From: Microbacterium kunmingense
Lineage (GTDB): Bacteria > Actinomycetota > Actinomycetes > Actinomycetales > Microbacteriaceae
Reading direction: 5' to 3'
NCBI RefSeq assembly: GCF_023155745.1
Contig: NZ_JAKNUS010000006.1
Location: forward strand, 186,001 to 250,000
Length of the DNA stretch: 64,000 nucleotides
Part shown: piece after piece, positions 18,490-47,016 of the stretch
How positions within the stretch are numbered: the first letter of the stretch is position 1
How the letters are laid out: each line of letters begins with the position of its first letter
Notes under the pieces: model-generated
The model's input: only the letters and a program-made list of their open reading frames with translations
Databases searched by the model: none
Told to the model about the DNA's origin: nothing
Translations under genes and position numbers: made by a program

Positions 18490-18854
18490 CGAATGGGCCG
18501 GCCTGTACGCCGGGTTCTGTCCGGGGGCGTGAGCCCCGTGGACGGTCATCTCTCTCGGCGACACGTTGCCGTGCCGCTCCAGCGGCCTACCCGAGGACTC
18601 GGCGAGCCGCGTCAGCATCCTCTGTCTGGCCTTGCTCCGGGCGAGGTTTGCCGTGCGGGCCGTGTCACCACGACCCCGGTGGTCTCTTACACCGCCGTTT
18701 CACCCTTACCGGGGTCGCCCCCGGCGGTCTGTTCTCTGTGGCACTGTCTCGCGGATTACTCCGGGTGGGTGTTACCCACCGCCCTGCCCTGTGGAGCCCG
18801 GACGTTCCTCGGCGCGGATTACCCGCGACGCGACCGTCCAGCCGACCCATTCGC
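18490..18854 (-). ncRNA. rnpB: RNase P RNA, class A
   Basis: Catalytic RNA of RNase P, which matures tRNA 5' ends. The ends pair as helix P1 (5' CGAATGGGTCGGC with 3' GCCGGCCCATTCG), and the 3' part reads GAACCCGGCGTACAGGCCGG, the hallmark of bacterial type A RNase P RNA. About 365 bases. A -10 hexamer TACACT at 18861-18866 (minus strand) fits a start near 18854. It fills the interval between ppgK and the polymerase-like gene; the exact ends are inferred from P1 pairing. Confidence 0.92.
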
Positions 18855-45113: not shown

Positions 45114-46944
<1,831 letters not shown>

Positions 46945-46998
46945 CTAGATCGAGGCCTCGCCGCGGCGGCTAAGGAGAAGAAGCAGGCCGGCGCGCAT
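46945..46998 (-). CDS. leuL: Leucine leader peptide of leuA
   Basis: 17-residue peptide MRAGLLLLLSRRGEASI with five leucine codons in a row (CTG CTT CTT CTC CTT), ending in TAG 63 bases before the leuA start. TACCAT (47005-47010, minus) ends six bases before its ATG, so the leader is translated from the first base of the mRNA. This is the classic layout of leucine attenuation: a ribosome stalled for lack of charged tRNA-Leu would change folding of the GC-rich RNA that follows, where GGGCC and GGCCC segments can pair. Confidence 0.75.
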   Translation of the reverse strand: MRAGLLLLLSRRGEASI

Positions 46999-47004
46999 GC
47001 CGCC

Positions 47005-47010
47005 ATGGTA
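47005..47010 (-). promoter_or_regulatory. -10 of the leuA leader transcript
   Basis: TACCAT on the minus strand, six bases before the leader peptide ATG. It lies 7 bases beyond the era stop codon, so leuA is transcribed separately from the era operon. Confidence 0.6.
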
Positions 47011-47016
47011 GCAGGC

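Follow-up and report, generated by a model that had tools for sequence, protein, structure and literature searches.

The LEU-element leader upstream of leuA in the window (the whole 64,000-nucleotide stretch of DNA analysed here) is probably leaderless and probably attenuates translation of leuA in response to leucine. The comparative evidence comprises a conserved leader ORF, the spacing of its -10 element, a restricted choice of Leu codons, a covarying helix, an average fit of the Leu run to the Shine-Dalgarno (SD) sequence of its own locus, the lack of a terminator and a further copy of the element at leuC. Among the mechanisms considered, translational attenuation with the Leu codons as anti-SD strand is the best supported.

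Leader ORF and its conservation

The gap between era and leuA measures 135 bases on the minus strand and contains the leader ORF (Table 1), whose ATG occupies 46998-46996 and whose TAG ends at 46945. The sequence-only reading had described five consecutive Leu codons in this frame and an ATG six bases after TACCAT. Both were found in the sequence: the five codons are those listed in Table 1, and TACCAT (47010-47005) lies six bases 5' of the ATG, preceded by TGC and just downstream of the era stop codon, with a spacing that is common to relatives.

Table 1. Features of the era-leuA region in window coordinates
Feature	Position	Strand	Basis
era (stop codon 47019-47017)	47934-47017	minus	ORF reading
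Extended -10, TGC-TACCAT (TGCTACCAT)	47005-47013	minus	Sequence; spacing kept in relatives
Leader peptide ORF MRAGLLLLLSRRGEASI, stop included	46945-46998	minus	Conserved leader in 81/81 loci
Leu codon run CTG CTT CTT CTC CTT, putative sensor codons and predicted anti-SD	46972-46986	minus	Codon bias, SD pairing
Base stem, 5' arm (11 pairs, one G-U)	46975-46985	minus	MFE of leader RNA
Helix H1, 5' arm CCGCGGCGAGG, inside leader codons 11-15	46956-46966	minus	11-pair helix, 150 sequences
Helix H2, 5' arm GGGCC, predicted pseudoknot with H1	46940-46944	minus	Helix search
Helix H1, 3' arm CCTCGTCGCGG, past leader stop	46927-46937	minus	Covariation, 150 sequences
Helix H2, 3' arm GGCCC	46911-46915	minus	Helix search
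Base stem, 3' arm, overlapping the purine-rich leuA SD region (about 46886-46897)	46884-46894	minus	Folding
leuA, 2-isopropylmalate synthase, putative regulated gene	45121-46881	minus	Pfam HMGL-like, IPMS_D2, LeuA_dimer

We compared the window with the best 80 leuA loci of named records, giving 81 loci, most of them titled with Microbacteriaceae genera; by record title, the exceptions are an Acidobacteria MAG (L063) and a member of the Cellulomonadaceae (L081). A Leu-rich leader was present upstream of leuA in 81 of 81 loci, which upholds the proposed leucine leader peptide. A missing Leu run in closely related genomes had been named beforehand as a refuting observation; this was checked, and the run was kept in every locus. 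The leaders started with ATG in 35 loci and with GTG in 46, and in all 81 the Leu run ended a multiple of three bases from the start codon, so that changes in leader length stay in frame. Across 150 sequences, the first and second positions of the last three Leu codons were nearly invariant and the third was variable, as for translated codons. Because the start/-10 layout, the frame and the third-position variation are conserved, the leader is very probably translated.

For a phylum-wide set, 109 of 124 places outside the own genome were taken, with E up to 5.6e-23. These loci comprised 73 with a leader of the window's type, that is, with helix H1 (65 assigned by script and 8, missed by the helix rule, by hand), 27 with a short leader reaching at most one codon past the Leu run (17 by script and 10 by hand), 2 unclear loci (L167, L190) and 7 in which no leader was called by rule. 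The last class partly reflects the leader rule, since one of its seven loci (L155) has a match to covariance model R1.

Promoter layout

With a leader choice that favours starts after a -10, and that takes the start after the -10 where a rule blind to this element lists several, TAnnnT lay 6 bases before the ATG or GTG in 74 of the 81 leuA loci, 7 bases before it in 6 and 9 bases before it in 1. All 81 chosen leaders were also listed by the rule that ignores the -10, often beside other starts. TGN preceded TAnnnT in 69 of the 81 loci. As a control, TAnnnT was located 6-7 bases upstream of only 1 of 485 other ATG or GTG codons in the same upstream sequences. A strict sigma-70 scan gave no promoter in the window, so the promoter call there rests on the conserved extended -10. 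The 5' end of the mRNA is probably at or next to 46998, the leader ATG, and the promoter is positioned as leaderless transcription would require. The earlier prediction that the leader start is also the mRNA start agrees with this layout, as the conserved -10 is placed so that the transcript should begin at the start codon.

Relation to described leucine leaders

The LEU element (Seliverstov et al. 2005; PMC1262725) was predicted before leuA in most of the Actinobacteria studied. As set out in the available part of that paper, it consists of a Leu-run leader, a pseudoknot and a pairing between the Leu run and the leuA SD, with no obvious terminator, and Leifsonia xyli, from the same family as the window organism, is in its genome list. 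With its leader ORF and Leu run upstream of leuA, its helix H1 and its Leu run x SD pairing, the window element is a real, conserved instance of the LEU element, and its sequence indicates that it is probably leaderless. The words "leaderless", leuB, leuC and leuD do not occur in the available text of PMC1262725.

A second precedent is LeuL1 of Streptomyces lividans leuA (MRFGLLLLSCRGEGL), which is leaderless by transcriptome data and has no typical Rho-independent terminator (PMC8079986, available part). It belongs to another genus than the window, and the same part of PMC8079986 gives no mechanism for the missing terminator. Given PMC1262725 and PMC8079986, a leaderless leucine leader of leuA is not new. 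Corynebacterium glutamicum and C. diphtheriae also have a leuA leader in which four Leu codons follow one another; the available parts of PMC4046766, PMC3890552 and PMC5784534 discuss it as (possible) transcription attenuation, in the case of C. diphtheriae without a transcription start site.

What is offered here is a testable mechanism for a regulatory RNA known since 2005, for which the literature examined holds no agreed mechanism. Mycobacterial cys operons reportedly carry leaderless polycysteine leaders, an account ascribed to Canestrari and dated 2020; these are likewise leaderless short ORFs with a run of the sensed codon, and differ in the amino acid.

Leu codons as a candidate anti-Shine-Dalgarno strand

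Among the last three Leu codons of the leaders (243 codons, 81 loci), CTT accounted for 64.2%, CTC for 35.0% and CTG for 0.8%, compared with 2.2%, 38.7% and 54.9%, respectively, in the leuA coding sequences of the same loci (3655 codons). Since CUY codons pair with a purine-rich SD, this CTY restriction points to an anti-SD role. In the window, 11 base pairs were predicted between the Leu run and the SD; this duplex, at -17.5 kcal/mol, outdid shuffled sequences (P 0.01, 100 shuffles), and no other stretch of the same UTR paired better. Averaged over the 81 loci, the Leu run paired more strongly with its own SD (-10.21 kcal/mol) than with the SD of other loci (-9.12 kcal/mol). The same held for own versus mismatched SD in 149 loci (-10.05 vs -9.33 kcal/mol), a set that leaves out five H1-type loci without a usable leuA start, and for the 68 loci outside the first 81 (-9.86 vs -9.39 kcal/mol; P 0.016). 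For 71 dissimilar representatives, the means were -10.30 vs -9.16 kcal/mol (sd 0.24), and 0 of 5000 permutations, which do not fully remove relatedness, were as good. Single loci were often weak: relative to shuffled SD regions, P 0.05 was reached by only 24 of 81, and in only 5 of 81, the window among them, did the Leu run pair better than every other part of its UTR. Taken over the loci, the Leu codons look like an anti-SD of leuA.

Over the 81 loci, the 3' arm of H1 can also pair with the SD region, at least as strongly as the Leu run does; its mean was -11.31 kcal/mol and 24 loci reached P 0.05, so the strand that hides the SD may vary between species. We rejected this pairing as the main switch; it was above chance over the 81 loci, but its P value in the window was 0.64. 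The H1 3' arm may serve as an additional means of covering the SD.

CTY codons are readable by one tRNA-Leu isoacceptor, and the preference for CTT and CTC could reflect an isoacceptor that empties first rather than SD pairing. In line with this explanation, CTT makes up a large share (39.5%) of the Leu codons in the 27 short leaders as well. However, the short leaders are less restricted: codons other than CTY account for 28 of 81, compared with 9 of 219 in the H1-type loci beyond the first 81, and on average the Leu runs fit their own SD in both the leuA and the leuC sets. As a replacement for SD pairing we therefore hold isoacceptor choice to be very improbable, and the two can act together.

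Conserved RNA structure

Alignment A2 contained 150 leaders from the window, named records and phylum genomes, after 4 of 154 rows were dropped (2 identical and 2 nearly so). The results showed that 95.0% of H1 cells were paired, with changes on both sides in 98 cells compared to 31.4 in shuffles. Six of the 11 pairs changed on both sides, the fit was best at slide 0, and sliding the partner destroyed H1. Because an H1 arm overlaps the codons of the leader C-terminus (C/R-R-D/G-E), this end of the peptide is at least partly conserved by RNA constraint. The arms of H2 differ between example loci yet remain complementary; in only 12 of 154 loci was H2 longer than in nearly all shuffles, and its length was mostly not above them.

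At the leader, no Rfam family, T-box, leu leader and riboswitch models included, scored above its gathering threshold in the window, and a scan of 20 loci likewise gave no hit that reached this threshold; one CcsR1 hit was discarded as chance-level, its 13.1 bits lying below the gathering score of 65.3. Elsewhere in the window, Rfam placed a bacterial class A RNase P RNA at 18490-18849 on the minus strand, and three tRNA genes are present.

The available text of PMC1262725 regards leader-peptide attenuation as unlikely and a binding protein as likely, proposing that the RNA is a binding site for a helicase-like protein of the ML1624 family; the leader peptide would then play little part. The strong conservation of H1 and the published doubt about classical attenuation are in line with this proposal. 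Against it, all 81 loci preserve the reading frame with its start codon, the -10 layout and the Leu run, and the leaders at four leuB loci hold Leu together with Ile and/or Val codons, which fits codon sensing. We judge a protein-binding site with an idle peptide to be highly improbable.

Predicted switch

The leader region was folded with and without a ribosome-sized block of an assumed 28 bases at different positions, ignoring the pseudoknot. In the window, the predicted unpaired fraction of the SD was 0.17 in the free RNA and 0.15 with a ribosome at the stop codon, and rose when a Leu codon occupied the A site, to 0.71 for the first codon of the run, 0.54 for the third and 0.73 for the last; the SD would thus be hidden in the free RNA and at the stop, and open at a Leu stall. 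Recoding the whole run to CTG in silico opened the SD (0.86 free; 0.66 at stop). Over the 81 loci, SD and start codon together had a predicted mean unpaired fraction of 0.34 in the free RNA, 0.39 with a ribosome at the stop and 0.55 with one at the first Leu codon. A ribosome at the first Leu codon gave more opening than one at the stop in 61 of 81 loci and not in the remaining 20 (Wilcoxon P 3e-8).

A hairpin with a U-tract was found neither in the window nor in any of the 81 leuA loci, nor in the 73 further H1-type loci, where the search reached 130 bases past the leader. We infer translational attenuation because the SD is predicted to be hidden in the free RNA and at the stop and to open on a Leu stall, and because this terminator is absent. 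Of the leucine attenuator first proposed, the leucine leader peptide stands; transcription attenuation probably does not, given that none of the 81 loci has a U-tract hairpin, and an attenuator of the translational type is the more probable device.

Alternatively, leader translation could set leuA transcription through a Rho-dependent terminator, with the Leu x SD stem being secondary. A hairpin with a U-tract comes after 23 of the 27 short Leu leaders outside the window organism's class, compared to 0 of 73 and 0 of 81 for the window's type; this lends some weight to control of transcription, as does the Rho-dependent control suggested for mycobacterial cys leaders in the available part of PMC1262725. 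The missing U-tract hairpin in all loci of the window's type speaks against it, and the CTY restriction and the Leu x SD fit are left unexplained, so that attenuation of leuA transcription is unlikely here.

Under translational attenuation, the steps that we infer, namely the exact transcription start, leader translation, stalling and the effect on leuA, would be as follows. The mRNA would start at the leader ATG. With ample Leu-tRNA, the ribosome would run on to the leader stop, eight codons beyond the Leu run, and from there would leave UGCUUCUUCUC free to pair with GAGAAGAAGCG over the leuA SD, preventing leuA initiation. When Leu-tRNA is short, the ribosome would stall on the Leu run and mask the anti-SD strand, so that the leuA SD opens. 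H1, and probably H2, would act as a scaffold joining the two distant strands.

In translational attenuation of the cat/erm type, stalling of a ribosome on the leader frees the downstream gene's SD from the stem in which it is hidden. The element described here would differ in that the sensed codons are themselves the hiding strand and that the signal is amino acid shortage, not an antibiotic. According to the available text of PMC1262725, mutations in the Leu leader of S. coelicolor were not consistent with classical attenuation. Such results might be expected if the Leu codons serve both purposes, since the mutations would then remove the sensor and the repressing strand together.

A second copy upstream of leuC

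A search of the own genome with covariance model R1 returned the leuA leader at 91.5 bits and G000:C12:21028-21149 (L191, outside the window) at 91.0 bits; further matches, with E of 0.09 and above, were taken as chance. The latter place is a second LEU element, upstream of leuC, with the leader MRIARLLLSGRGETS and a -10 (TACTCT) six bases before its GTG. The gene that follows has a Pfam match to the Aconitase family, and we take it to be leuC on the grounds of similarity and pathway knowledge.

Within the family, 147 of 149 genomes contained a LEU element, with one match in 47 genomes, two in 89 and three in 11. We classified 89 elements, a non-random sample made up of 9 second copies, 30 best matches, 20 second-ranked matches and 30 of 33 elements in three-copy genomes. 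In this sample, 52 elements preceded leuA or a leuA-like gene, 37 preceded leuC (the own genome plus 36 other family loci) and 0 of 89 were found elsewhere. The -10 was at 6-7 bases in 87 of the 89 and at 9 bases in two.

The SD test could be applied to 35 of the 37 leuC copies, the other two having no usable start. The Leu runs paired better with their own SD (-9.89 vs -8.66 kcal/mol, sd 0.33; 0 of 5000 permutations). The predicted unpaired fraction of the SD was 0.15 in the free RNA, 0.20 with the ribosome at the stop and 0.45 at the first Leu codon, and 28 of the 35 copies opened more with the ribosome on Leu than with it at the stop, whereas 7 did not. No account of a LEU element at leuC was found in the open-access literature searched; the copy at leuC looks new, as does the dual role proposed for the Leu codons. 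The proposed control would thereby extend from leuA to leuC.

Some family genomes have a further element before a second leuA-like gene (L286, L287, L291, L293-L296, L298-L300); in 6 of these 10 the leader ends in RRHGGA or RRHDGA.

Related elements elsewhere in the phylum

H1-type leaders were largely confined to the window organism's class (67 of the 73 further phylum loci), and all 27 leuA loci with a short leader (L143, L151, L153, L164, L166, L177 and 21 others) were outside it. TAnnnT was located 6-8 bases before the start of the short leader in 18 of the 27 loci and at 10 bases in 3, and was not seen in 6. With the terminator-like hairpins described above, the short leaders resemble classical transcription attenuators of leuA.

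In other families, LEU-like elements were identified 250-436 bases before leuB (L200, L202, L205, L207), with leaders that contain Leu plus Ile and/or Val codons; leuB is followed there by a class IV aminotransferase gene (Pfam), probably ilvE. A short similar ORF, RQALQESMD, lies between the leader and leuB in L200 and L202. Four further LEU-like elements, with LLVT, LVV or LVT leaders, precede an ORF (L201, L203, L204, L206). Pfam LeuA_dimer, the allosteric domain of LeuA, matched the L203 ORF above the cut-off and a stretch at L206 below it, and gave no match for the L201 and L204 ORFs.

Together, these elements could represent a modular leaderless sensor, with the sensed codons as anti-SD, placed separately before leuA and leuC in one genome, with Leu/Ile/Val versions at leuB in some relatives, and with an output exchanged for a terminator in other classes; we give this wider reading an even chance. 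One kind of sensor would then be joined to two output devices within one phylum, and the leuC copy and the exchange of output devices are the parts worth following. Among the weak R1 matches, L208 and L209 look like chance, and L210 resembles the known leuS leader of Streptomyces.
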